Source of the DNA: Marixanthomonas sp. SCSIO 43207
GTDB lineage: Bacteria > Bacteroidota > Bacteroidia > Flavobacteriales > Flavobacteriaceae
Reading direction: 5' to 3'
Length of the DNA stretch: 64,000 nt
Assembly (NCBI RefSeq): GCF_019904255.1
Contig: NZ_CP063203.1
Location: forward strand, 1,674,001 to 1,738,000
The notes beneath the pieces are model-generated. The model was not told the origin of the DNA, made no database searches, and worked only from the letters and a program-made list of their open reading frames with translations. How positions within the stretch are numbered: the stretch's first letter is position 1; every line of letters starts with the position of its first letter. Shown one piece after another: positions 12,312 to 48,908 of this stretch. Made by a program: the position numbers and the translations under genes.

Positions 12312-12896
12312 CTACTTTAACATCATAGCTACTACCGGTCTTGCTTTTTCCAATTCTTCAAGATCTAATGTGAAACCCATAGGTTGCAGCTGTAAGGTTA
12401 CCATCTTATAGACAGGTTTCATTTGAGCAAAATCTACCAGTACTATTTCTCTAGGGGTAGCTCCAAAATTATTGCGAACTGTTTTATCTGCTTTTCCATC
12501 AAGGAGTAATTGTACCATTTCAATTCGTGCAAAGAATGCAGCTGTATGTAAGGCTGTGCCGCCATCATTATTTTTTATAGATAAATCTGCTTCTGCATTG
12601 ATAAGTGCTTTGGCTATTTCAGGTTTATTAAACGTGATGGCAGTCATTAAAGGAGTAGATCCAGACATGGTTTCTTTTTGATTAATATTGGTTCCAGCTT
12701 CTATATGCTGCTTCACAGCTTCCAAGTTTCCGGCTAGTACAGCTTCATGTATATCTATACTGGGTTTACTTACTTCCTTTTTTGAAAGAGCTGTTGTATT
12801 CTTGGTTTCTTTTTTTTGTGAACACGAGGGTAACATCATTGCCACTACACAAATAATAAGTACCCACTTTAATTGATTTTTAACTGATTTTTTCAT
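12312..12896 (-). CDS. Ankyrin-repeat lipoprotein
   Basis: 194 residues. The lipoprotein signal peptide ends MMLPSC (Cys25). Residues 50-140 make about three ankyrin repeats (DIHEAVLAGNLEAVKQHIEAGTN, GSTPLMTAITFNKPEIAKALINAEAD, GGTALHTAAFFARIEMVQLLLDGKAD). It is likely a periplasm-facing protein-binding module. Its promoter carries the five-repeat operator also found before the serine hydrolase at 18677-20635, and the divergent gene is an AraC/TolB/TPR regulator, so it is a strong candidate target of that regulator. Confidence 0.85.
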   Translation of the reverse strand: MKKSVKNQLKWVLIICVVAMMLPSCSQKKETKNTTALSKKEVSKPSIDIHEAVLAGNLEAVKQHIEAGTNINQKETMSGSTPLMTAITFNKPEIAKALINAEADLSIKNNDGGTALHTAAFFARIEMVQLLLDGKADKTVRNNFGATPREIVLVDFAQMKPVYKMVTLQLQPMGFTLDLEELEKARPVVAMMLK

Positions 12897-36537: not shown

Positions 36538-36580
36538 TGATAAAAGTCATTGTTCTAGTACAGATATTAAAATACTTTTA
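36538..36580 (+). promoter_or_regulatory. Crp/Fnr-like box and -7 element before USP gene 1
   Basis: The box TGATAAAAGTCA (36538-36549) is followed after exactly 23 bp by TACTTTTA (36573-36580). The same box, spacer length and -7 element recur before the TerB-like gene and USP genes 2 and 3. The box centre would be near -41, a class II activator position. Confidence 0.75.
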
Positions 36581-36643
36581 TAGTGTGATTTATGATTTGT
36601 TATAAAAAGCACAATCATATTTTAATTTTTAAAAAAGAACATT

Positions 36644-37480
36644 ATGAAAAAAATACTCGTTCCAACCGATTTTTCACAATATGCCGAATATGCTTTGCAA
36701 GCTGCTGCATCGATAGCAAAAAAACAAGATGCAACTCTTAGTGTGGTCCATATGTTGGGCCTTTCAGAAGCGGTTATTTCTAGAGATGAATCAAAAAAAG
36801 CACTAGAAGGTCTTTATTATTTGAAACTAGCTGAAAAGCGCTTTGCAGAATTTTTGGATAAAGAATACCTAGAAGGAATAACCATAGAAACTGCAGTTGA
36901 AAACTATACAGTTTTTAGTGAATTGGGTAGCATTGCCGAAAAGCGTGGAGCCGATCTCATCGTGATGGGCTCACACGGAAGCAGCGGGTGGAATGAAGTA
37001 TTTGTAGGAAGTAACACCGAAAAAGTTGTACGCACCTCAAATATTCCGGTATTAGTTATTAAAGGTCCGTCTGTTGGGTTTTCAATGAATAAAGCAGTGT
37101 TTGTTTCAGATTTTAAAGAAGCCAACCTCCACGCATACCGACAAGCAATGAAGGTGTTTAAACTTTTTAATACCGAATTAAAACTATTATATGTCCATCT
37201 ACCGGGTGAGGACTTTAAATCAACTTATGAAATTGAAGACCGAATTGTATCCTTTCTATCTCAATCTGGATTAGACGATGCGCACCATATTAAAAATGTT
37301 GCGTTTATAAATGATTACACGGTAGAAAATGGTGTATTTACATACAGCAAAAAAATTGGTGCTGAAGTTATTGCCATTCCAACGCACGGTCGAAGAGGCT
37401 TATCTCACTTTTTTTCAGGAAGTATCACTGAAGATATAGCTAACCATTCTAAATTGCCGGTTATTACCTTTAAAATTTAA
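36644..37480 (+). CDS. Universal stress protein, tandem UspA domains (1)
   Basis: 278 residues with two UspA-like domains. The first begins KILVPTDFSQYAEYAL and holds the ATP-binding type G2xG9xGS motif in VMGSHGSSGWNEVFVGSNTEKV; the second ends IPTHGRRGLSHFFSGSITEDI. These proteins bind nucleotides and promote survival under stress or stasis. A Crp/Fnr-like box controls its promoter. It is monocistronic, ending at a bidirectional terminator. Confidence 0.92.
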   Translation: MKKILVPTDFSQYAEYALQAAASIAKKQDATLSVVHMLGLSEAVISRDESKKALEGLYYLKLAEKRFAEFLDKEYLEGITIETAVENYTVFSELGSIAEKRGADLIVMGSHGSSGWNEVFVGSNTEKVVRTSNIPVLVIKGPSVGFSMNKAVFVSDFKEANLHAYRQAMKVFKLFNTELKLLYVHLPGEDFKSTYEIEDRIVSFLSQSGLDDAHHIKNVAFINDYTVENGVFTYSKKIGAEVIAIPTHGRRGLSHFFSGSITEDIANHSKLPVITFKI

Positions 37481-37504
37481 AGGAAGACCATCTGTTTTTA
37501 GTTG

Positions 37505-37538
37505 AAAAAAGAGAGCTGTTTATGGCTCTCTTTTTTTT
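37505..37538. terminator. Bidirectional terminator between USP 1 and thioredoxin genes
   Basis: GAGAGC (37511-37516) and GCTCTC (37525-37530) are flanked by A6 and T8 runs, serving the two convergent genes. A palindrome AACGC-T-GCGTT follows near 37560 without a known role. Confidence 0.8.
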
Positions 37539-37584
37539 AGACTTACTATTTCGCAATGTAACGCTGCGTTACTGCGGTATACAA

Positions 37585-37884
37585 TTATGTATGTTGATTA
37601 ATAATTGAGATAATATCTTGTTTTTGTAACACACCACTTTGCCGCCACACTTGAGTTCCATTTTTAAATAGGAGCATAGTAGGGACGCCTCTTACCTGAA
37701 ACTGTGAAGCCAGCGATTGATTTTTATCTACATCAATTTTTACAATTTTAATCGCATCTTGCAGCTCGTCCTTTACTTGTTTTAAGATAGGAGCAAGCGT
37801 TTTACAAGGACCACACCAATCTGCGTAAAAGTCTACCAAAACAGGTGTTTCAGAATCAATAATACTTTTAAAATTACTTTTCAT
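37585..37884 (-). CDS. trxA: Thioredoxin
   Basis: 99 residues, a complete minimal thioredoxin. The active site is WCGPC (Cys24 and Cys27) in FYADWCGPCKTLAP, and the cis-Pro loop is GVPTMLLFKNG. It reduces protein disulfides in the cytoplasm with thioredoxin reductase (not in the window). A -7 box TATTTTTG lies at 37902-37909 on the minus strand. Its place within the stress cluster fits a redox role. It is probably one of several thioredoxins in the genome. Confidence 0.93.
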   Translation of the reverse strand: MKSNFKSIIDSETPVLVDFYADWCGPCKTLAPILKQVKDELQDAIKIVKIDVDKNQSLASQFQVRGVPTMLLFKNGTQVWRQSGVLQKQDIISIINQHT

Positions 37885-37920
37885 AAGCGCATTGTTTTAT
37901 ACAAAAATACACAATGTAAC

Positions 37921-38808
37921 TTAGCCTTTAAAAGGACTGTTACTGTAGTTACGTAAAACCGGAAGTAATTTTTCTAATGAAACGTGCACCGAATATGTTC
38001 CTGTATAAGAAGGACAAACAATACAATCATCAAAGTAAAACTCAGCATACGTATCATGCAAAACAAAGTTGTTTTTGTATTGGAAAAAATCTTCTGAAGA
38101 AAGCTCCCAACAATCATAATACAAGTCGCCCGCAGCAATTTGGCGCGTTATTTCATCGTTTAAAATACCACGAAGTGTTTCTTCGCTGCCTGTCGTAAAA
38201 ATATCTTCATATTTCAGAAATGAAGCATTATTCAAATCATAATTAAGGCACGTAAAACTCAAGGATGGATGAAGTGTTCTGGCATAAAAATTCTCTTTGT
38301 AAAATAGAATGCTGATGTGTTTGTCATTCAAATTGTAAATTTTATAGTCAATAGTTCTTACTTCGTGAAAACGATTGGCGCGAATGCTATCGCAAATTAA
38401 TTCTGCATCTTCAAGGATAGAAGCTTCGGTACCTACCACATCGACATATTGTTCAGTTATGTATTGATTAAAATTTCGGTAAGCAGGATTTATCTTTTCG
38501 TTTAAAAGCGGATAGGTAAATTTTAATGTAAATAAATCATCTTCTTTTGTGAGTTTCTTTTCAATAACGAGTGTTTCTAGAGCTTCCCGTTCATCAGGTT
38601 TGGTTTTAAGTTCGTTTTGTTTTATAGAAATTCCTTCTAGCTTTTTAAGATCTCGATCTACTGGTTTTTCTGAAATAGTATCGGTCGCTATTGTTTCAGA
38701 AATTGGAGACTCCACGGAGTTTTCAGGAAGTTCTTTTTCCGAAGTATCTTGTTTACACGAAATAAACAGAGCGCTTACAATAATAGAGGTAATAAAAAAT
38801 AGTCTCAT
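37921..38808 (-). CDS. DUF3298/DUF4163 (RsiV-like) lipoprotein
   Basis: 295 residues. The lipoprotein signal ends FISC (Cys18). An acidic Ser/Glu-rich linker (about 20-75) leads to a DUF4163-like part (FTLKFTYPLLNEKINPAYRNFNQYI) and a DUF3298-like part (YARTLHPSLSFTCLNYDLNNASFLKYEDIFTTGSEETLRGIL; FVLHDTYAEFYFDDCIVCPSYTGTYSVHVSLEKL). The fold is known from the lysozyme-binding anti-sigma factor RsiV. No sigma factor is adjacent, so the role is unknown. It begins 2 bp after the TerB-like gene, forming one operon with it. Confidence 0.85.
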   Translation of the reverse strand: MRLFFITSIIVSALFISCKQDTSEKELPENSVESPISETIATDTISEKPVDRDLKKLEGISIKQNELKTKPDEREALETLVIEKKLTKEDDLFTLKFTYPLLNEKINPAYRNFNQYITEQYVDVVGTEASILEDAELICDSIRANRFHEVRTIDYKIYNLNDKHISILFYKENFYARTLHPSLSFTCLNYDLNNASFLKYEDIFTTGSEETLRGILNDEITRQIAAGDLYYDCWELSSEDFFQYKNNFVLHDTYAEFYFDDCIVCPSYTGTYSVHVSLEKLLPVLRNYSNSPFKG

Positions 38809-38810
38809 AG

Positions 38811-39215
38811 TTATGATTTTAAAAGAAGGTCAAGCTTGGCAAGCATTACCAATTCTGCTTTGTTTTTTCCAGCGAACGAATTTGCAATAGCGTGAGCGGT
38901 TTCTAAAATTATAGAATTAATTTTTGAGGTGAATAAACTGGGGTGTTCTTCTTTAAATGTTTTAAAATCGTTAAAACAGATTTGGGCGTCCAATTGACTG
39001 TCTTCCATCCAATCAAAAACAATTTCAATTTGGTACGAAGCATCGGTATGATATTCGTCTTCAAGGGTATCAACCTGTTTCCATTTTTCATGCACCAATT
39101 CTCGCAGTGTTTTTACTTCTGCATCACGTATTACCTTATCTGAAGCGGCAATGGCATAAAATAATTCACCCAGTTTTTGATAAAATCTAAGTTCGGGTTT
39201 TTGTTTGGTATTCAT
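38811..39215 (-). CDS. TerB-like domain protein
   Basis: 134 residues, mostly helical. It opens ELRFYQKLGELFYAIAASDKVIRDAEVKTLRELV, the acidic metal-binding-like start of TerB folds (D-K-V-I, E-V-K-T-L), and continues with a helical bundle. It is likely cytoplasmic. Its promoter is driven from the shared divergent box at 39270-39281, which places it in the same regulon as the USP genes. The family is associated with stress and metal responses, but no precise function can be given. Confidence 0.7.
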   Translation of the reverse strand: MNTKQKPELRFYQKLGELFYAIAASDKVIRDAEVKTLRELVHEKWKQVDTLEDEYHTDASYQIEIVFDWMEDSQLDAQICFNDFKTFKEEHPSLFTSKINSIILETAHAIANSFAGKNKAELVMLAKLDLLLKS

Positions 39216-39238
39216 AGTAGGTGGTTTTTAATGTATTA

Positions 39239-39312
39239 TAAAAGTAGTAAGAAAGAGCGCGGTAATCTATGATATATGTCATTGTGATAGGAGATGATTT
39301 AAACTACTTTTA
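39239..39312. promoter_or_regulatory. Symmetric Crp/Fnr-like box with two divergent -7 elements
   Basis: The box TGATATATGTCA (39270-39281) has TACTTTTA 23 bp away on the plus strand (39305-39312, towards USP gene 2) and TACTTTTA 23 bp away on the minus strand (39239-39246, towards the TerB-like gene). Identical spacer lengths on both sides make chance unlikely. Confidence 0.82.
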
Positions 39313-39334
39313 GATTGATATAATCTTTTACATT

Positions 39335-40180
39335 ATGAAAACAATTTTAATTCCTACCGATTTTTCAAATAACGCCTATGAAGCGTTGTTTTATTCTGCC
39401 AAGTTGTATAGTGAGCATACCACAAATTTTATTTTGTTATATTCATATGAAGATGAGGTAAGTCACTTAACCAGCCGTGTTGATATAGGAAAGAGCGAAA
39501 AAATAGTAGACCAAATCATCACTCGGGTTGAAAAACAAGGCGCCGAACTTATTGATAAGGTAAGAAACAACTTGGGAAATGCGGCACATACATTTCGGTT
39601 TATAGCCACAGGGATGAGTGTGTATAGAGCTGTAAAAAAACTCATTACGCAAGAAAATGTTTCGTTAATGGTCATGGGAACCAAAGGAAAAACAGCAGAT
39701 GAAAACATATTGGTAGGTAGTACTACCTTACAAATGATTAAAAAACTAAAAACGTGTCCGTTGCTAGTCGTGCCCGAAAAGGTAAATTTTGTTGCACCTT
39801 TTAAGATAGGATTTGCAACAGACTTTACAGAATATTCAAATCTGGCTCATGCGGAACCGTTAACAGAGTTAATTAACAGTTTTCATTCCTCTCTAGAAGT
39901 TATTCATGTGGGTGAGCAAAATACACTTACTGAAGCTCAGCAAACCCATTTAGCTCTTCTGAAGAAAAACACAGAATCCTTTAATACACACTTTCATTTT
40001 CTGAAAAAAGAACAATCTATTTCAAAAACCATTCAGAAGTTTGTAGAAAAGGAAGATATTGATTTGCTCGTGTTGGTTTACAGAAAACACAATATGATTA
40101 TGAAACTTTTCAGAGAACCGGTTATTAATAAATTAAGTGGCGCAGACCGCACCTTGAAGCTTATCATTCCACAAGAATAA
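39335..40180 (+). CDS. Universal stress protein (2)
   Basis: 281 residues. The first UspA domain is clear (KTILIPTDFSNNAYEALFY; VMGTKGKTADENILVGSTTLQM with the nucleotide-binding Gly pattern; CPLLVVPEK). The second half is a divergent UspA-like domain (FKIGFATDFTEYSNLAHAEPL; DIDLLVLVYRKHNMIMKLF) that has lost the Gly motif. It heads an operon with the ATP-cone nuclease 25 bp downstream and the beta-CASP protein after it, under the divergent Crp/Fnr-like box. Confidence 0.9.
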   Translation: MKTILIPTDFSNNAYEALFYSAKLYSEHTTNFILLYSYEDEVSHLTSRVDIGKSEKIVDQIITRVEKQGAELIDKVRNNLGNAAHTFRFIATGMSVYRAVKKLITQENVSLMVMGTKGKTADENILVGSTTLQMIKKLKTCPLLVVPEKVNFVAPFKIGFATDFTEYSNLAHAEPLTELINSFHSSLEVIHVGEQNTLTEAQQTHLALLKKNTESFNTHFHFLKKEQSISKTIQKFVEKEDIDLLVLVYRKHNMIMKLFREPVINKLSGADRTLKLIIPQE

Positions 40181-40205
40181 AACATATAACCAAGAGCATT
40201 GCATT

Positions 40206-41042
40206 ATGAAAAAGACAACTGAAATAGTAAAATCATCTGGTAAGAAAGTGTCTTTTTCTATATCCAAACTTGAAAACTCATTGCGACGCAGTGGAGCAAA
40301 AGAGGCGTTGATTAAAAAAATTGTAAACACAGTACGTGATGAATTATATCAAGGAATTTCTACTAAAGAAATTTATAACCGAGCTTACACAATGCTTCAA
40401 AAAGAAGGCGGGCATTTGGCATCTAAGTATAAGCTTAAAAAAGCTATTTATGAATTGGGCCCTACAGGATTTCCGTTTGAAAAATTTGTAGCGGCTATTT
40501 TTGCCAATGAAGGGTATCACGTTGCTGTAGGAAAAACCATGTCTGGAAAATGTGTAGACCATGAAGTAGACATTGAGGCTAAAAACGAAACAAAAAACCA
40601 CATTGTGGCGGAGTGTAAATTTCATGGAGAGGAAGGAAGAAATTGCGATGTGAAAATACCTTTATACATACACGCTCGGTTTCAAGATATTGCTTTTCAA
40701 CATAAAAATACCTTAACCGGTTATGTGGTTACCAATACGCGCTTTAGTAAAGACGCAGAACAATTTGCACTCTGTGCAGGCTTGTACTTGTTGAGCTGGG
40801 ATTACCCAAAAGGCAACGGTTTAAAAGACAAGATTGACTTATTAAAATTATATCCTATTACTGTTTCAACCCTGTTAAGTAAACGAGAAAAACAATTTTT
40901 ATTAAGTAGAGATGTGGTGCTCTGTAAAGACCTGCTTCATGATAGGTTTTACTTAGATCACTTAGGTATTTCTGAAAATAGGAAAAAGCGTATTTTAAAC
41001 GAAATAGAATGTCTCTGTAAAATTCATACCGAATATGACTAA
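40206..41042 (+). CDS. ATP-cone domain fused to Mrr-like restriction-endonuclease fold
   Basis: 278 residues. Residues 5-88 form an ATP-cone (IVKSSGKKVSFSISKLENSLRRSGA), the nucleotide-sensing module of ribonucleotide reductases and NrdR. Residues 92-190 form a PD-(D/E)xK fold (GPTGFPFEKFVAAIFANEGY; VDHEVDIEAKNETKNHIVAECKFH, with D...ECK as the catalytic set). The C-terminal 80 residues are helical with a KREKQFLLSRDVVLCKDLL segment. It is probably a nuclease gated by nucleotide level; the nucleic-acid target is unknown. It lies between USP 2 and the MBL-fold hydrolase gene, overlapping the latter by 8 bp. Confidence 0.85.
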   Translation: MKKTTEIVKSSGKKVSFSISKLENSLRRSGAKEALIKKIVNTVRDELYQGISTKEIYNRAYTMLQKEGGHLASKYKLKKAIYELGPTGFPFEKFVAAIFANEGYHVAVGKTMSGKCVDHEVDIEAKNETKNHIVAECKFHGEEGRNCDVKIPLYIHARFQDIAFQHKNTLTGYVVTNTRFSKDAEQFALCAGLYLLSWDYPKGNGLKDKIDLLKLYPITVSTLLSKREKQFLLSRDVVLCKDLLHDRFYLDHLGISENRKKRILNEIECLCKIHTEYD

Positions 41043-42411
41043 TATTTCAATTCAGTTTTTGGGTGCGGCATCGACAGTAACAGGTTCAAAATTTTACATA
41101 CAAACTCCAGAACATACCCTTTTAATAGATTGTGGTATGTTTCAAGGACTCAAAAGCTTACGAGAAGAAAATTGGAAACCACTTCCAGTTGAGGTTTCAG
41201 CAGTTGATACTATACTCTTAACACATGGCCATTTGGATCATACAGGGTATATTCCTCGGTTGGTACAACAAGGATTTCAAGGTACTATTTACGGTACTGC
41301 GCCTACGCTGGCCGTTACTAAAATTATATTAGAAGATAGTGCCAAAATCCATGAAGAAGAAGCTGAAAAGGCAAACCAAGAAAAGTATAGTAAACATCAA
41401 CCAGCTCTTCCTTTTTATACGAGAAGTGATGTAGAAAAATCACTCACCTTTTTTAAGGCTGTTGAAACAGACTTTTGGAAACCCATCACAAAACACATAC
41501 GAGTACGATTTTGTTATAACGGTCATATTATTGGTTCAACGTATATAGAATTAGAACTCTACGGAAAACGATTTGTGTTTTCTGGAGATATAGGAAGGGT
41601 TAATGATTCATTATTATATTCGCCCCAAAAACCTAAACGGGCAGACTATCTTTTTTTAGAAAGCACCTATGGCAATCGATTGCATCCACAAGAAGATAGT
41701 ACAGCTATTCTTTCCAAAATAATAAATCAAGTTATTCAGGAAAGAGGTACGTTGATCATCCCTTCTTTTGCAGTTGAAAGAATGCAAACGTTGATGTTTT
41801 TATTATGGAATTTATACGAACAAAATAAAATACCTAATATTCCAATTTTTGTAGATAGCCCTATGGGTACCAATGTGGTGTCTGTATTTGAACAATTTTC
41901 AGATTGGCATCGTCTCTCGCCACAATCATTCCGAAGAATGAAAAAGCGATTTTACATCACTCAATCCTATGCAGATACTTGGAAAACCATCGACAACCCC
42001 AGGCCTAAAATTGTGATGACTGGTAGCGGTATGCTTACTGGAGGTAGGGTATTAACCTATTTGCAGCACTATATAGACAAATCCACTACACGTATTTTGA
42101 TGGTAGGCTATCAAGCAGAGGGAACCCGTGGAAGGCAACTTTTGGAAGGAGCTCACGAACTTAAAATATACGGCAAGTATTACCCCGTTAAAGCACAAAT
42201 TCATCGTTTAGAAAGTTTGTCGGCACACGCAGACCAACGAGGAATATTAGATTGGTTAGAAAATATTACAAATAACGTACAGGACGTTTTTTTAATTCAT
42301 GGAGAACCAACAGCTCAAGATATGCTACGTGTTAAGATACGGGATCGTTTTGGGTGGCGAGTAAGCATTCCGAAGCTATATGAAAAGAAAACTATACGTG
42401 TTTCTGATTAG
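41035..42411 (+). CDS. Beta-CASP MBL-fold hydrolase, CPSF73/RNase-like
   Basis: 458 residues. The metallo-beta-lactamase motif is LTHGHLDHTGYIPRL (about 63-77), with further ligands in CYNGHIIGST and FSGDIGR. The beta-CASP cap runs about 205-370 (FLESTYGNRLH; IIPSFAVERMQTLMFLL; PIFVDSPMG; IVMTGSGMLTGGRV), and the late motif is LESLSAHADQRG. It should be an RNA endo/exonuclease of the bacterial CPSF73 group. The gene overlaps the ATP-cone nuclease gene, so two nucleases and a USP are made from one message. Confidence 0.9.
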   Translation: MTNISIQFLGAASTVTGSKFYIQTPEHTLLIDCGMFQGLKSLREENWKPLPVEVSAVDTILLTHGHLDHTGYIPRLVQQGFQGTIYGTAPTLAVTKIILEDSAKIHEEEAEKANQEKYSKHQPALPFYTRSDVEKSLTFFKAVETDFWKPITKHIRVRFCYNGHIIGSTYIELELYGKRFVFSGDIGRVNDSLLYSPQKPKRADYLFLESTYGNRLHPQEDSTAILSKIINQVIQERGTLIIPSFAVERMQTLMFLLWNLYEQNKIPNIPIFVDSPMGTNVVSVFEQFSDWHRLSPQSFRRMKKRFYITQSYADTWKTIDNPRPKIVMTGSGMLTGGRVLTYLQHYIDKSTTRILMVGYQAEGTRGRQLLEGAHELKIYGKYYPVKAQIHRLESLSAHADQRGILDWLENITNNVQDVFLIHGEPTAQDMLRVKIRDRFGWRVSIPKLYEKKTIRVSD

Positions 42412-42450
42412 TTGATTGAAAAATTGTAACCTTTTATAAATACCATTACA

Positions 42451-43290
42451 TTAATCACTATGCGAGAGCATCAATAACGGTATGCGTGTGCGGTAGCCCA
42501 ATTGTTTATTTTCTGAACCAAATAAAAACCGTTCAAAAAAACTCTCTTTGGTTGAAAAAATAGCGTGCATGCCTACTTCAAAAAGTTGAATAAAAGCATC
42601 GGTAGCTACAGGAGCGGTAATACCCGATACTTGATGAAAATGATAAGAAAAACCTTCAAATGCTTTTTTTATACTTTCAGGTTCTTGTGTTTGAGGGCTA
42701 AAAAAAGGATCATCATGAACATCTAGAACCTCAAGCTTTGCTTTTTTGAATGTGAGCAATGAAAATAGCATACTCATTTTATGCAGTTCTAGGTTTTCAT
42801 TGTGATGTAAGGTAAATAATACCGAAGCTATAGGTTTATATTCATAGCCTTCAGGAACAATAAGTAAAGGACAGTCAATTTCGCGCATCACTTGCAATGT
42901 ATTACTGCCAAAAACAACTTCTAGAGCTCCGGTAGCTCCATTACTACCCATAACCAATACGTCTATAGGCGTATCTTCAAGTATCTGTTTTATAGACGCC
43001 GTGAGACCATCATAATCTACTTTTTGTTTGAATGTAAAGTTTTCATGACTGTATGTCTTTTCAAATTCTTCTACAAATTTCTGAAGCTTATTTTTATTGT
43101 CTTCCAGTAGGGTAGTGTATATATCTTTATTGGGATCAGCAGTGTAAAAATCATCCATGATAAATTCTGATGATTTCTGAACATTCAAAAAATAAAAGGT
43201 ACAAGTCGCTTCTGAAAAAAAATCTAAGGCATACCGTATGGCATTTTTAGAATTTTCAGAAAAATCGGTAGGCAATAAAATTGTTAACAT
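42451..43290 (-). CDS. Universal stress protein (3)
   Basis: 279 residues. The N-terminal UspA domain opens LTILLPTDFSENSKNAIRYALDFF and contains VMGSNGATGALEVVFGSNTLQVM and CPLLIVPEG. The C-terminal half is a degenerate UspA-like domain (IASVLFTLHHNENLELHKM). It is monocistronic, convergent with the beta-CASP gene (39 bp apart, no clear terminator), and expressed from the Crp/Fnr-like promoter at 43309-43351. Confidence 0.92.
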   Translation of the reverse strand: MLTILLPTDFSENSKNAIRYALDFFSEATCTFYFLNVQKSSEFIMDDFYTADPNKDIYTTLLEDNKNKLQKFVEEFEKTYSHENFTFKQKVDYDGLTASIKQILEDTPIDVLVMGSNGATGALEVVFGSNTLQVMREIDCPLLIVPEGYEYKPIASVLFTLHHNENLELHKMSMLFSLLTFKKAKLEVLDVHDDPFFSPQTQEPESIKKAFEGFSYHFHQVSGITAPVATDAFIQLFEVGMHAIFSTKESFFERFLFGSENKQLGYRTRIPLLMLSHSD

Positions 43291-43308
43291 AACTCAAGTA
43301 TTAGGTTT

Positions 43309-43382
43309 TAAAAGTAGTTGTTTGTTTAAGTAAATACTATGACAAATGTCACTTGTAGCATCTAGGTTGCAACCTATTTGTG
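43309..43382. promoter_or_regulatory. Perfect Crp/Fnr-like palindrome with divergent -7 elements
   Basis: TGACAAATGTCA (43340-43351) is a perfect palindrome. TACTTTTA on the minus strand (43309-43316) is 23 bp away, serving USP gene 3. On the plus side TATTTGTG (43375-43382), a weaker -7 match, is also 23 bp away and could serve the transhydrogenase operon with a leader of about 190 bases. Confidence 0.75.
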
Positions 43383-43582: not shown

Positions 43583-44698
43583 ATGGAAAAAATAGGATTG
43601 GTTAAAGAGCCTTCATTTGAAAATAGAATCTGTTTTTTGCCTAAAGAACTTAAGCGATTAACACAAGAGTTTGATTTAGATTTTTTTGTAGAGTTTGGAT
43701 TTGGAGATGATTTGGATATTCCAGATACAGACTTTGAGAAAGTAGGGGCTAAAATTCTAACCCGAGAAACTATTTTAAACGAGTCAGATTATATACTCTC
43801 AATAAATGATTTAAGTGATACTGTTGTTGACGAGAAACACAATACCCGTATTGGTATCTTTAATATGTTTTATTATCCAGAACGAATTGAAAAGTTTCTA
43901 AATAAAAACACTACTGTTTACAGTTTAGATTTATTACCTCGTACTACCTTGGCTCAATCTATGGATGTATTGTCTTCCATGGCATCACTAGCAGGATACA
44001 AAGCAGTATTGAAAGCAACCTCATATTATAATGGAGCAATTCCTATGTTTACTACTGCAGCCGGAACACTCAATCCTGCAAAGGTATTGGTGTTAGGTGC
44101 TGGAGTAGCAGGATTACAAGCCATTGCTACAGCAAAACGCCTTGGTGCAATAGTAGAAGCATTTGACGTGCGTAAATCTGCAGGAGAAGAAGTAAGAAGT
44201 CTAGGTGCCAAATTTGTAGAAGTAGAAGGTGCTCAAGATGCCAAAGACGCGGGAGGGTATGCGGTTGCACAAACAGAACAATACTTAAAACGTCAAAAGG
44301 AAGTAATTCACAACCGAATTCAAAATGCCGATATCGTTATTTGTACGGCTAATATACCCGGAAAAAAAGCTCCTCTTTTAGTAGAAAAAACTGCAATCGA
44401 AGCCATGAAACCAGGATCTGTAATTGTAGATATGGCAGCAGAACAGGGAGGAAATTGTGAGATGAGCCGCGCAGGACAAATTTTACAGCATAATCAAGTT
44501 ACAATAATAGGTGACTCAAACTTATCTCGAGGAGTACCGCAAGCAGCATCACAGCTATTATCTACAAATTATTATAACTTTTTAAAATACGTGTTACATG
44601 CTACCAAAGATGGTGATGTGTTATTAGAAAAGAGCAAAGTTATTGATAAAGGAATTTTAACCAACCCAGTATTAATTAATAAACTTGAACTAGCTTAA
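43583..44698 (+). CDS. pntA: NAD(P) transhydrogenase subunit alpha, part 1
   Basis: 371 residues, the soluble dI domain that binds NAD(H). It opens with the AlaDH/PNT_N region (GLVKEPSFENRICFLPKEL), and the Rossmann part is VLVLGAGVAGLQAIATAKRLGAIVEAFDVR (about 170-199). With the next two genes it forms the split, three-polypeptide proton-translocating transhydrogenase, which exchanges hydride between NADH and NADP+ using the proton gradient. It starts an operon with a predicted sigma54 promoter. Confidence 0.92.
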   Translation: MEKIGLVKEPSFENRICFLPKELKRLTQEFDLDFFVEFGFGDDLDIPDTDFEKVGAKILTRETILNESDYILSINDLSDTVVDEKHNTRIGIFNMFYYPERIEKFLNKNTTVYSLDLLPRTTLAQSMDVLSSMASLAGYKAVLKATSYYNGAIPMFTTAAGTLNPAKVLVLGAGVAGLQAIATAKRLGAIVEAFDVRKSAGEEVRSLGAKFVEVEGAQDAKDAGGYAVAQTEQYLKRQKEVIHNRIQNADIVICTANIPGKKAPLLVEKTAIEAMKPGSVIVDMAAEQGGNCEMSRAGQILQHNQVTIIGDSNLSRGVPQAASQLLSTNYYNFLKYVLHATKDGDVLLEKSKVIDKGILTNPVLINKLELA

Positions 44699-44699
44699 T

Positions 44700-44996
44700 A
44701 TGGAATTTATTCAAAACAATCTTGACGTTATTTATTTTGTCATTTTTTGTGTTTTTATAGGAATAGAAGTAATCGCAAATGTACCTGCCATCCTTCATAC
44801 TCCGCTAATGTCTGGTGCCAATGCTATTAGTGGAGTAATTATGGTAGGAGCTATAATAATGATGTTTCAAATACCTCCCACTAATTATATTACACTAACA
44901 GTAGGTGGTATTGCTGTTTTTTTGGGTGCCTTGAATATATCGGGAGGCTTTTTTGTTACCGGTAGAATGCTAAAAATGTTCAACACCAAAAAATAG
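44700..44996 (+). CDS. NAD(P) transhydrogenase subunit alpha, part 2 (membrane)
   Basis: 98 residues with three TM helices (about 10-28, 38-60 and 62-85), matching the C-terminal membrane part of PntA when split (dIIa). TPLMSGANAISGVIMVGA is the conserved first-loop and helix signature. The gene starts 1 bp after part 1 and ends 4 bp before pntB. Confidence 0.92.
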   Translation: MEFIQNNLDVIYFVIFCVFIGIEVIANVPAILHTPLMSGANAISGVIMVGAIIMMFQIPPTNYITLTVGGIAVFLGALNISGGFFVTGRMLKMFNTKK

Positions 44997-45000
44997 TATA

Positions 45001-46389
45001 ATGAATGCATTAATTGAAGTAGGTTATTTATTAACTACAGTTACATTTTTAGGAGGACTAAAATTTATGAGTTCACCAAAATATGCAAAAGCAGGAAATA
45101 CATTAGCAGCGATAGGAATGATTCTTGCAGTTTTGTGTACATTCTGGTTACTCACTTCGCAAACAGTACCAACTATTAATCTTCTCATCGTGTTTGGAGC
45201 AATTTTATTAGGCTCGGTGGGAGGAAAAATTATGGCGGCAAAAGTTGAAATGACTGCTATGCCTCAATTAGTATCTCTATTCAATGCTACCGGAGGAGGA
45301 TGTGCTATGCTTTTAGGGATTGTTGAAGCCATACAAATAAAAGAGAACCCTACATCTTTAGGAATGCAAATTTTACTTCTTTTAGGTTTAGTAACCGGAG
45401 CTGTAGCAGCTTCAGGAAGCGTTGTAGCCTATGGTAAACTAGCAGGAAAAATAAAAGACAACCGCAAAGGTATTATAGTACTTGGTTCGCGGGTATTGTT
45501 AATATCTATTATAGTTATACCATTACTTTACTTTTTGGGCGGTATCCCTCTTTCTTTTGAGGTTATTGCATATGTTATGGCAGCAATAGCTTTATTATAT
45601 GGAGTTTTATTTGTTTTACCTATTGGCGGGGCCGATATGCCGGTGGTAATCTCCCTTTTAAATTCTATCACAGGAATTGCTACCGCATTGGCAGGACTTG
45701 TTTATGCAAATAAAGCCATGATTGCAGGCGGTATTTTTGTAGGAGCAGCCGGAATATTATTGACTCTTTTAATGTGTAAAGCGATGAACCGTTCTTTATT
45801 AAAAGTACTGGCAGGAAAGTTTAAAAAAGGTAAAGTTGCTGAAAGTACCGAAGCGCAAAACATTAAAGAAATAGCTGTTTCTGAAACAGCGATGCAATTA
45901 TCCTTTGCCAATAAAATAGCTATTATTCCTGGGTATGGTCTTGCTGTGGCTCAAGGGCAACACTTGTGCAGTCAATTACATCAATTATTAGAAAAACAAG
46001 ATACTCAAGTAGATTTTATTATTCATCCCGTAGCAGGTAGAATGCCGGGACATATGAATGTTTTACTCGCTGAAGCAAACATAGATTATGAATACCTTAA
46101 AGAAATGGATCAAGTAAATAGTGATATGGATAAATATGATGTGGTATTAATTATAGGAGCAAACGATGTTGTAAATCCGGCTGCCGAAATCAATCCTGAT
46201 AGTCCCATTTATGGTATGCCTATTATAAAAGCCCATAAGAGTAAACAAGTAGTGGTTATGAAACGAGGTATGAGTAAAGGATATGCGGGAGTTGCCAATG
46301 ATCTCTTCGGAATGAACAACTGTAGTTTATTGTTTGGCGATGCAAAGGATTCATTACAAAATCTAATTAACCAACTCAAATTACTTTAA
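45001..46389 (+). CDS. pntB: NAD(P) transhydrogenase subunit beta
   Basis: 462 residues. The first 265 form about eight to nine TM helices (MPQLVSLFNATGGGCAMLLGI; VISLLNSITGIATALAGLVY), lining the proton path. The C-terminal dIII domain (about 305-460) binds NADP(H): IIPGYGLAVAQGQHLCSQL, HPVAGRMPGHMNVLLAEA, VVLIIGANDVVNPAAE, VVMKRGMSKGYAGVAN. All key motifs are present, so the complex should be functional. Confidence 0.95.
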   Translation: MNALIEVGYLLTTVTFLGGLKFMSSPKYAKAGNTLAAIGMILAVLCTFWLLTSQTVPTINLLIVFGAILLGSVGGKIMAAKVEMTAMPQLVSLFNATGGGCAMLLGIVEAIQIKENPTSLGMQILLLLGLVTGAVAASGSVVAYGKLAGKIKDNRKGIIVLGSRVLLISIIVIPLLYFLGGIPLSFEVIAYVMAAIALLYGVLFVLPIGGADMPVVISLLNSITGIATALAGLVYANKAMIAGGIFVGAAGILLTLLMCKAMNRSLLKVLAGKFKKGKVAESTEAQNIKEIAVSETAMQLSFANKIAIIPGYGLAVAQGQHLCSQLHQLLEKQDTQVDFIIHPVAGRMPGHMNVLLAEANIDYEYLKEMDQVNSDMDKYDVVLIIGANDVVNPAAEINPDSPIYGMPIIKAHKSKQVVVMKRGMSKGYAGVANDLFGMNNCSLLFGDAKDSLQNLINQLKLL

Positions 46390-46477: not shown

Positions 46478-47554
46478 ATGTCTCATACCGAAACAGCTCT
46501 TAAAGAACGTATTAAAGAATTAACATGTCTGTATGAAGTATCTTCTATAATTGTCAATGCAGACATAGCAGAAGTGAAAGATACCTTAACAGCTATTGCC
46601 TATAGTGTAAAGAAAGCTTTTCAATTTCCGAAGTATACAGAAATAGCTATACAAACACCAGATACTACATTTAAAACCGGAATCATTAATGAAAAGTTAG
46701 GCCTCACAGCTTCTATAACTATTTTTAATAAACCCGAAGGAAAAATTATTGCTTCACTTACAGATAAAAGTACTTTTTTAAGAGAAGAACAACAATTGCT
46801 TGACAACGTTGCTTTAAAAATTGGAAACCTACTAGAACGTATAGAAATAAACAATAAAGAAGCTTCATTAAAAAGACAAATGGAACGTGCAGACCGACTA
46901 AGCATAATAGGAGAAATTACAGCCGGTATAGCACACGAACTAAATACACCATTGGCAAATATATTGGGCTTTGCAGAGTTGCTTAAAGATGAATTCAAAA
47001 ATCAAGAGAATGCTTCAAAGGATGTAGACAAAATCATTCACAACGCTATTTTTTCTAGAGAAGTAGTAAAAAAATTAATGTTTTTTGCGTGTGAAATGCC
47101 TCAAGAAATGAAACGAGTAAATATAGTTCCTACTATAAAAGAAGCAATTAGCTTACTCGATGCTACCTTCAGAAAAGAGCAAGTAAAGTATGTGGTGCGT
47201 ATTCAAGAGGAAGAAATGTGGCTTAAGGCAGATCAAATACAGCTTACACAAATCATATTTAACCTTATTATCAATGCCATATACTTTTCACCAAAAAACG
47301 GATTAGTTACAATTAAAGCATATCAATCCCCAACCGAGAGTGTTTTGAGTATTCAAGATGAAGGTCCTGGTATTTCAGAAGAAGCATTGGATAAAATTTT
47401 TCAACCATTTTATAGTACCAAACCTACGGGTGATGGATCGGGTCTTGGGCTTAGTGTAGTACACGGGATTGTATTGAGTCACAAAGGAACAATCAAAGCC
47501 GAAAATAATATCGATAAAGGTGCTACCTTTACCGTTAGACTTCCAAAATCATAA
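46478..47554 (+). CDS. NtrB-like sensor histidine kinase
   Basis: 358 residues, soluble. Residues 1-125 are a GAF/PAS-like input domain (LTCLYEVSSIIVNAD; ALKIGNLLERIE). A coiled linker leads to the H-box GEITAGIAHELNTPLANILGFAELL (His about 151), N-box QIIFNLIINAIYFSP, G1 DEGPGISEEALDKIFQPFYSTK and G2 GSGLGLSVVHGIV. It is partnered with the sigma54 response regulator that begins 4 bp downstream. A -7-like TACCTTTA lies at 46448-46455. Confidence 0.92.
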   Translation: MSHTETALKERIKELTCLYEVSSIIVNADIAEVKDTLTAIAYSVKKAFQFPKYTEIAIQTPDTTFKTGIINEKLGLTASITIFNKPEGKIIASLTDKSTFLREEQQLLDNVALKIGNLLERIEINNKEASLKRQMERADRLSIIGEITAGIAHELNTPLANILGFAELLKDEFKNQENASKDVDKIIHNAIFSREVVKKLMFFACEMPQEMKRVNIVPTIKEAISLLDATFRKEQVKYVVRIQEEEMWLKADQIQLTQIIFNLIINAIYFSPKNGLVTIKAYQSPTESVLSIQDEGPGISEEALDKIFQPFYSTKPTGDGSGLGLSVVHGIVLSHKGTIKAENNIDKGATFTVRLPKS

Positions 47555-47558
47555 TAGC

Positions 47559-48908
47559 ATGCAATTACGCAACGAAAATATACTTATTGTTGATGATGAT
47601 ATTGATATTTTAGAACTTTTACAACGTCATTTGCGATCTTGGAACTTCCATGTCTATAGAGCTGTTTCTGTTAAAGAAGCAGTGAGTATTTTACGAGATA
47701 CCCGCATTGATTTACTTATTACTGATTTAAAAATGCCTGAAGTTGATGGATTTGAACTTATAAAATTTGTCTCAGAGCATTACCCTAATCTACCCAAATT
47801 AATTGTAACAGGATATCCTTCGGTTCAAGACTCACTTACAGCTATTAAATCTGGAGTTGTTGCATATTTAACAAAGCCATTCACCAAAGATGAGCTTAAA
47901 TCAGCCATACATAACTCCTTAAATACAGAACATAAAAAAGGAGCAAGTTTGACTAATCCTACCAAAGGAAACACTTCTGATAGTTCTCAAAAAAAAGAAC
48001 CCTATGGTGATATCATTGGTACTTCAGATAAAATAAAAGAAGTAATACAAGTTATTGAACGTGTAAAAGATAACAAAGCAACTATATTTATAAAAGGAGA
48101 AAGCGGAACCGGAAAAGAACTTGTTGCTAGGGCAATTCATTATAAAGGTAAATTTTCTAGATCGCCTTTTATAGCTGTAAATTGTGGTGCCATTCCTGAA
48201 AACTTACTTGAAGCAGAACTCTTTGGTTATATGAAAGGAGCTTTTACGGGAGCCGAAAAAAATAGAGACGGTTTTTTTCAAGCTGCCCATGGCGGAACCA
48301 TTTTTTTGGATGAAATAGGAAATGCTTCAGCCGCTGTGCAAGCCAGATTACTTAGGGTATTGCAAGAAAAGGAGGTGGTAAAAGTAGGAGCTCAAAAAGC
48401 AGAAAAAATAGACGTTCGTATTATTGCTGCTACCAATAGTGACTTAAAAGAAATGATCAAAAAAGACACCTTTAGGGAAGATCTTTTTTACAGATTAACA
48501 GTTGTTGAAATACAGGTTGCTCCACTTAGAGCGCGTAAAAGTGATATACCTCTATTAGTTGATAAATTTTTGTTTAAATACGGAGTAGAATATAAAGACC
48601 GTTTTATAAAAATAAGTGCCGAAGCTCTTGAAGTTTTACGTAGGTATGATTGGCCTGGAAATATTAGAGAACTTGAAAATATTATACAACGAGCGGTCAT
48701 TATGTGTGATGGTACGATAACCATTGATCATTTACCCAATTCATTAAAATTTAATATTGACTTTCCTGAAGAAGAACTACTTCCTTTAAAGCAAATAGAG
48801 ATACAGTATATTAAAAAAGTTCTTCGAGCAACAAATAATAATAAAACCAAAGCTGCTGAAATATTAGGTATAGACCGCAAAACGATTCGGCAAAAGCTTT
48901 CAGAATAA
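47559..48908 (+). CDS. NtrC-family sigma54-dependent response regulator
   Basis: 449 residues from ATG 47559; an upstream ATG inside the kinase gene is rejected because the receiver would start too late. Receiver: acidic pocket VDDD (11-14), phospho-acceptor Asp56 (LLITDLKMP), Lys in YLTKPF. AAA+ domain: Walker A GESGTGKE, sigma54-contact loop GAFTGAEK, Walker B GGTIFLDEIG, and arginine-finger region FREDLFYRL. Fis-type HTH at the C-terminus (AAEILGIDRKTIRQKLSE). The GAFTGA loop means it drives sigma54 promoters; two candidates flank this operon at 43528 and 49041. Confidence 0.94.
   Translation: MQLRNENILIVDDDIDILELLQRHLRSWNFHVYRAVSVKEAVSILRDTRIDLLITDLKMPEVDGFELIKFVSEHYPNLPKLIVTGYPSVQDSLTAIKSGVVAYLTKPFTKDELKSAIHNSLNTEHKKGASLTNPTKGNTSDSSQKKEPYGDIIGTSDKIKEVIQVIERVKDNKATIFIKGESGTGKELVARAIHYKGKFSRSPFIAVNCGAIPENLLEAELFGYMKGAFTGAEKNRDGFFQAAHGGTIFLDEIGNASAAVQARLLRVLQEKEVVKVGAQKAEKIDVRIIAATNSDLKEMIKKDTFREDLFYRLTVVEIQVAPLRARKSDIPLLVDKFLFKYGVEYKDRFIKISAEALEVLRRYDWPGNIRELENIIQRAVIMCDGTITIDHLPNSLKFNIDFPEEELLPLKQIEIQYIKKVLRATNNNKTKAAEILGIDRKTIRQKLSE

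Follow-up and report, generated by a model that had tools for sequence, protein, structure and literature searches.

A 23-bp promoter spacing, a FixL-like kinase and a receiver-Crp/Fnr fusion point to a probable oxygen-limitation regulon of universal stress protein genes in Marixanthomonas

FNR/Anr-type class II promoters carry the motif TTGAT-N4-ATCAA. Other described systems tied to low oxygen are FixL-FixJ-FixK of rhizobia and Caulobacterales (PMC4999443, in the part available), NmpRSTU of Myxococcus xanthus (PMC11841059, likewise in part) and the lxa locus of Burkholderia cenocepacia (PMC6127331, in part). By analogy, these four are close in function to the system that we propose here for Marixanthomonas sp. 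SCSIO 43207. The window, by which we mean the whole stretch of DNA analysed, is 64,000 nucleotides long (positions 1674001-1738000 of the single-contig 2.96-Mb genome), and in it genes for universal stress proteins (USPs) and their neighbours stand behind putative boxes for a Crp/Fnr-type regulator. Our reading, to which we give a probability of about 0.76, is that these promoters are part of an oxygen-limitation regulon run by a FixL-like kinase and a receiver-Crp/Fnr fusion, with class II activation at -41.5. When oxygen falls, the PAS histidine kinase, probably heme-bearing, would most likely phosphorylate the fused receiver domain; the fusion dimer would then bind TGAY-N4-RTCA(T) centred at -41.5 and bring RNA polymerase, carrying the primary sigma factor of Bacteroidota, to a TAnnTTTR element exactly 23 bp downstream.

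A preliminary description of this DNA had reported three TGAY-N4-GTCA boxes, with four -7 elements exactly 23 bp away from them. All are present on the sequence, and a search for box and -7 element gives the following promoter features.

36538..36549, + strand: regulator box TGATAAAAGTCA of the USP1 promoter
36573..36580, + strand: -7 element TACTTTTA of the USP1 promoter, 23 bp from the box; predicted +1 at about 36585, from a -12 to -5 register (PMC9723704, in the part available)
39239..39246, - strand: -7 element TACTTTTA of the TerB promoter, 23 bp from the shared box
39270..39281, no strand assigned: shared bidirectional box TGATATATGTCA
39305..39312, + strand: -7 element TACTTTTA of the USP2 promoter, 23 bp from the shared box
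43309..43316, - strand: -7 element TACTTTTA of the USP3 promoter, 23 bp from the box
43340..43351, no strand assigned: box TGACAAATGTCA, a full palindrome
43375..43382, + strand: weak, uncertain -7 candidate TATTTGTG towards the transhydrogenase genes, with one mismatch to TANNTTTR

Across the window there are 4 pairs of box and -7 element within 60 bp, all with a spacing of 23, and the predicted leaders are about 14-59 bases long. An extra box, TGAYNNNNGTCA at 12635, has no TANNTTTR within 60 bp downstream. Could the pairs be chance, or a composition effect of AT-rich promoters? The window has 5 box matches (the palindrome at 43340 counted twice), a number reached in 16 of 100 shuffles and thus not above chance, and TACTTTTA is common, with 19 copies, so the claim rests on the spacing. 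That spacing is contradictory to chance, which we rule out, leaving it next to no probability, on the peaks in the genome, the family and the regulator loci and on the reversed-pattern controls, as follows.

Over the genome there are 27 cases of TGAYNNNNRTCA followed by TANNTTTR at 8-38 bp. Ten have a spacing of exactly 23 bp, and the remaining 30 spacings average 0.57 pairs each (excess at 23, Poisson P ~6e-10); the reversed-pattern control of the same search gave 14. The exact site at 2557701 is doubtful, having a box that overlaps the end of a Crp-family gene and no T after the box. With one mismatch allowed, the genome gives 31 matches including the 10 exact ones, versus 27 for the control; as this is near the control, we kept as weak candidates only those matches that lie shortly before a gene of the window or of the cbb3 cluster. 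A search limited to a spacing of 23 (an N23 site) finds matches in 177 of 199 family genomes, 2,666 in all versus 99 reversed. Histograms over 0-60 bp were made for 40 loci of the fusion regulator, none longer than 20 kb and each from a different one of the 86 genomes that match the fusion, picked nearly in rank order: 175 pairs fall at 23, 1 at 22 and 4 at 24, and the mean elsewhere is 1.7. Loci of named genomes, 80 in number and partly overlapping the other sets, have 252 at 23, 3 at 22, 11 at 24 and 13 at 25 (mean 2.2 elsewhere). In a phylum sample of 247 genomes, 125 have a match and 39 the fusion; the 31 genomes of the same class outside the order give 143 matches versus 15 controls, and beyond the class most genomes have 0-2, though some, for example G381 (8) and G316 (6), have more. 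The promoter code belongs mainly to Flavobacteriaceae and more weakly to its class.

The 175 sites refine the box to TGAY-N4-RTCA followed by T, and make TACTTTTA one version of TAnnTTTR. In Flavobacterium psychrophilum the -7 element TAnnTTTG sits at -12 to -5 (PMC9723704, in the part available). If that register is borrowed, with the first T at -12, the 12-bp box, separated from it by 23 bp, spans -47 to -36, which supports a box centre of -41.5, the class II position. The -33 TTTG is found in 0 of 175 N23 promoters versus 16 of 824 background sequences, mostly non-promoters, a comparison that tells nothing because the box largely covers those positions. The preliminary description had proposed a class II Crp/Fnr-type promoter and a genome-wide search for enrichment of the 23-bp pattern; the strong enrichment at exactly 23, in the genome and in the family, the borrowed register and a fitting regulator outside the window all argue for that promoter type.

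Identifying the Crp/Fnr paralogues had been suggested as well. In the genome six proteins with a cyclic nucleoside monophosphate (cNMP) domain were found, and in one of these, the likely regulator, a receiver is joined to a cNMP-binding fold and a Crp-type helix-turn-helix (HTH).

2748604-2749656, 1 Mb from the window: receiver-cNMP-HTH_Crp fusion regulator (PF00072, PF00027 and PF13545, the last two above cut-offs)

A search of the genome with the Crp part of the fusion gives, at E<=1e-15, the fusion alone. By its cNMP-binding fold and Crp-type HTH it is a member of the Crp/Fnr superfamily, and the recognition helix keeps E316 and R320 in 40/40 relatives. The [4Fe-4S] cysteine set of FNR is absent, there being by eye no Cys in the Crp part of the Marixanthomonas fusion; after residue 120 there are no cysteines in 17 of the 40 relatives, one in 19, two in 3 and three in 1. 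The acidic pair, the phospho-Asp and the Lys of the receiver are found in all 40, with Ser (39) or Thr (1) at the Ser/Thr position, so that by these residues it is a response-regulator receiver and phosphorylation is predicted.

Directly upstream of the fusion gene is encoded a PAS histidine kinase, and the two genes are adjacent and on one strand in 40/40 loci. In Marixanthomonas the pair lies beside cbb3 oxidase genes, with five exact sites within ~17 kb. The best PDB match of the PAS part is FixL, 1d06 (E 1e-15), with His and Arg aligned. In SmFixL, His194 is the heme ligand and Arg214 the oxygen contact (PMC10765370, in the part available); the His194 counterpart is kept in 40/40 kinases and the Arg214 counterpart in 35/40, and the kinase His is present in 40/40. 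On this alignment the kinase is FixL-like, having a PAS domain with a predicted proximal heme His and a distal Arg. The alternative of a kinase without the heme His was rejected on the FixL alignment and the residue roles. Its neighbour is a single receiver-cNMP-HTH_Crp protein in place of a FixJ that activates a separate fixK. A second receiver-Crp fusion family (L171-L187) is 40-45% identical, and a kinase whose best match is the FixL-like one adjoins it in 17/17 loci. Those 17 loci have 59 pairs at 23 (mean 1.0 elsewhere), and in five of them (L171, L172, L182, L183 and L186) box-like pairs ~22 bp apart, the upper box 45 bp from the -7 element, were seen in 8 cases.

Sites and fusion occur together. 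All 86 family genomes with the fusion (E<=1e-40) hold at least 6 sites (range 6-53), or 5.9 per Mb versus 0.135 for the control. The 71 genomes having only another homologue of the Crp part have 3.1 sites per Mb (median 9), and the 42 without a homologue at E<=1e-15 have 0.9 (median 0). The genes of the window also travel with the pair: within the 40 regulator loci, USP genes are found in 39, TerB in 25, ATP-cone in 20, beta-CASP in 19, DUF3298 in 17, thioredoxin in 17, USP1-like in 15 and USP3-like in 9, with ATP-cone, beta-CASP, TerB and DUF3298 together in 12. The same-genus genome G054 (locus L111) has the complete set, with N23 sites before USP3, a USP run, TerB and a pair of S30AE-type and USP1 genes. 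In some relatives the set forms one cluster with the kinase/fusion pair, and in our genome it is divided between 1.71 and 2.75 Mb; this split would account for a window with sites but no regulator. The ATP-cone protein is found in 82 family genomes, 70 of which also have the fusion, a co-occurrence that suggests a role in the low-oxygen response for this nuclease-like protein.

The genes of the window that concern us are these.

36644..37480, + strand: USP1, universal stress protein with two Usp stretches (Pfam Usp, E 1e-43)
37585..37884, - strand: thioredoxin (Pfam), end of a TerB-DUF3298-thioredoxin run, presumably cotranscribed
37921..38808, - strand: DUF3298-like protein (below the Pfam cut-off)
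38811..39215, - strand: TerB-like protein, named after the preliminary description (no Pfam family at E 0.001)
39335..40180, + strand: USP2 (Pfam Usp)
40206..41042, + strand: ATP-cone and Mrr-type nuclease-like protein (Pfam ATP-cone, Mrr_cat, AF1548-like_C)
41035..42411, + strand: metallo-beta-lactamase/beta-CASP/RMMBL ribonuclease (RNase)-like protein (Pfam)
42451..43290, - strand: USP3 (Pfam Usp)
43583..46389, + strand: transhydrogenase genes, a possible target (identified in the preliminary description and by reading the translations)

The TerB-DUF3298-thioredoxin order is the same in relatives such as L111, L112 and L113. A shared box like the one at 39270 is rare: of 171 boxes in use at the 40 regulator loci, only 4 have a promoter on each side. 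The transhydrogenase genes are followed directly by 46478-48908, which appears from the translations to encode a histidine kinase and an NtrC-type response regulator.

At the cluster of the kinase/fusion pair, Pfam finds cbb3 subunits, a FixG type protein, a P-type ATPase (CcoI-like) and a radical SAM protein (HemN-like); the names CcoS, CcoH, CcoI and HemN are provisional ones, given in part from gene position. The boxed genes, as predicted targets, would comprise five USPs of ~280 aa, the TerB/DUF3298/thioredoxin run, the USP2/ATP-cone/beta-CASP run, the cbb3 oxidase, the HemN-like protein and a thioredoxin-like protein, the last following the site at 2734423. Weaker candidates are the acetyl-CoA hydrolase/transferase, the CcoI-like pump and the transhydrogenase, whose genes (pntA for the last) have one-mismatch sites just before them. 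The weaker -7 element formerly noted towards the transhydrogenase thus exists, with its one mismatch at 43375, and the link to the regulon is weak: 4 of 29 relatives have an exact N23 site before pntA, and the transhydrogenase is a possible member.

Over the 175 sites of the regulator loci, the first gene is a USP at 88, TerB at 21, CcoS at 7 and one of four other reference genes at 7; 47 sites precede genes without a similar reference, and 5 have none within 350 bp. The unmatched genes contain a group with 15 members from 15 fusion loci, of which the one tested, that of L111, encodes an S30AE ribosome-hibernation-type protein; USP1 follows 13 of the 15, and a USP1 homologue lies behind a boxed S30AE-type gene in 13 of the 40 loci. 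An Hsp20 group of 8 is drawn from 4 loci of each fusion type, a YtxH group (7) is confined to the second type, and of the 6 in a patatin group 5 come from the second type; from every group one member was tested. Boxed proteins of ~150-165 aa near the USP/beta-CASP run, with no significant Pfam family, are encoded at L134:5685-6179 and, similar-looking, at L113:1681-2127, in a group of 6 loci.

Other members of the family have a stand-alone FNR. All 20 such homologues examined have a CxxC near the N-terminus, and 19 of their 20 loci have a CcoI-like gene. There are 18 pairs at 23 in these loci, 14 of them before CcoS, and 11 at 9 bp. Fusion and FNR are near neighbours in some loci, e.g. in G121, G061 and G134. 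We favour, with some hesitation, the view that one rigid low-oxygen code, a box at -41.5 and 23 bp to TAnnTTTR, serves two sensors, either an iron-sulphur-type FNR or a FixL-like kinase with a receiver-FNR fusion that collapses FixJ and FixK, and that in lineages like Marixanthomonas FNR has given way to the pair, which drives a regulon for survival made up of USPs, with the ATP-cone nuclease and the beta-CASP RNase, and in relatives of the S30AE-type protein and Hsp20 as well.

The 9-bp layout bears on how the box is used. It is found in 11 of the 20 FNR loci (L154, L156-L159, L162, L163, L165-L167 and L169), in each of the 11 it is aimed at the FNR gene, and it looks repressive; our guess is autorepression of that gene. 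Several observations weigh against the activation, the regulator or the signal that we propose, and the first is that sites alone cannot tell activation from repression. Since the box at -41.5 overlaps the -33 region, the factor might repress from it, or both activate and repress. A spacing sharp to one base across spacers of little common sequence suggests contact with RNA polymerase and not simple blocking, and we hold repression to be quite unlikely.

The identity of the regulator has its own difficulties. Many sites occur where no homologue was detected in G048 (29 sites; 82% complete), G147 (16; 73%) and G138 (10; 99%), and the genomes are related, so that co-occurrence is an association and not a count of independent events. 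The box and the class II layout could be right with another of the five other Crp-family proteins of the genome reading the box, the fusion being merely a neighbour. An E...R helix is seen by eye in 4 of these 5 paralogues, the recognition helix of 2527466 (VETVIRT) is close to that of the fusion (TESLIRT), and G138, in which neither fusion nor FNR was detected, holds two homologues of 2527466, which may explain that exception. Set against this, a homologue of 2527466, the one paralogue that the cross-genome comparison covered, was found in no more than 35 of the 199 genomes. It is missing from 65 of the 86 fusion genomes, all of which still reach 6 sites or more, and where it occurs with no match to fusion or FNR, in G148 and G086, the sites number only 1 and 2. 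No box is found in a 7-kb stretch round 2527466, and none of the five paralogues matches the Crp part of the fusion at E<=1e-15. We therefore regard a different reader of the box as very unlikely.

As for the signal, the same promoters might respond to something other than oxygen, the PAS domain binding another ligand or sensing redox or energy state. The Arg214 counterpart is altered in 5 of 40 kinases, and the counterpart of SmFixL Arg200, a proximal Arg linked to kinase inhibition, is Asn in the Marixanthomonas kinase by alignment to FixL; half of the sites in the 40 loci, moreover, precede USPs, which are general-stress proteins. The counterpart of the proximal His, however, is kept in 40/40 kinases, cbb3 and HemN-like genes are among the predicted targets, and cysteine-bearing FNRs at cbb3 loci use the same layout. 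A signal other than oxygen is in our view an unlikely, though serious, alternative. The response to an oxygen or redox shift that the preliminary description had suggested gains from the boxed cbb3 and HemN-like genes and from the FixL-like kinase, as far as sequence can indicate function.

If oxygen limitation is indeed what the kinase/fusion pair signals, a large, mostly marine bacterial group gains a concrete and testable code for its oxygen response, comprising a promoter rule and candidates for both sensor and regulator. A spacing rule of this sharpness would make regulons readable from genomes and class II activation open to study with the unusual Bacteroidota sigma factor, and two sensor types on one promoter layout would offer a natural example of a regulon that stays while its sensor is exchanged. 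In open-licence literature, screened mainly at listing level, we found no account of a one-protein receiver-Crp output, of its pairing with a FixL-like kinase in Flavobacteriaceae, or of a 23-bp rule in Bacteroidota. Crp/Fnr homologues are reported from an anammox reactor, including a Flavobacteriales genome with a MalR-like homologue, and the kinase/fusion system is not described in the available part of that source (PMC8510549).

Compared with the known systems, the proposed one shares with FixL-FixJ-FixK a FixL-like PAS kinase, a Crp/Fnr-type output without the iron-sulphur cysteine set, and cco (cbb3) and hemN targets. It differs from the system as described in the available part of PMC4999443 in having receiver and Crp/Fnr output in one protein, with no separate FixJ and FixK steps, and in a Bacteroidota -7 type promoter and targets dominated by USPs. 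With M. xanthus NmpRSTU it has in common a hypoxia response, a predicted heme-binding sensor kinase paired with a response regulator, and the mention of hemN and a USP gene in connection with the targets; NmpRSTU differs by its globin-coupled kinase, a phosphorelay via a second kinase and a sigma-54 NtrC-type regulator (PMC11841059, from the part available). The lxa locus resembles our genes by description in six USPs and a heat-shock protein, a low-oxygen tie and a metallo-beta-lactamase-superfamily protein in the same gene-number run; it belongs to another phylum, and in this comparison of descriptions we see no evidence of common descent as a locus (PMC6127331, in part). Of the four comparisons, FNR/Anr-type class II promoters are alike in the promoter itself, with a TGA...TCA palindrome at -41.5, and in the protein, with a Crp-family fold and a kept recognition-helix Glu and Arg. 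The outer T and A of the FNR/Anr motif have a different counterpart here, a T after the box and no T favoured before it, and the -7 element is TAnnTTTR. The fusion lacks the cysteine set of FNR, and cysteine-bearing FNRs with the same layout are found in other members of the family.

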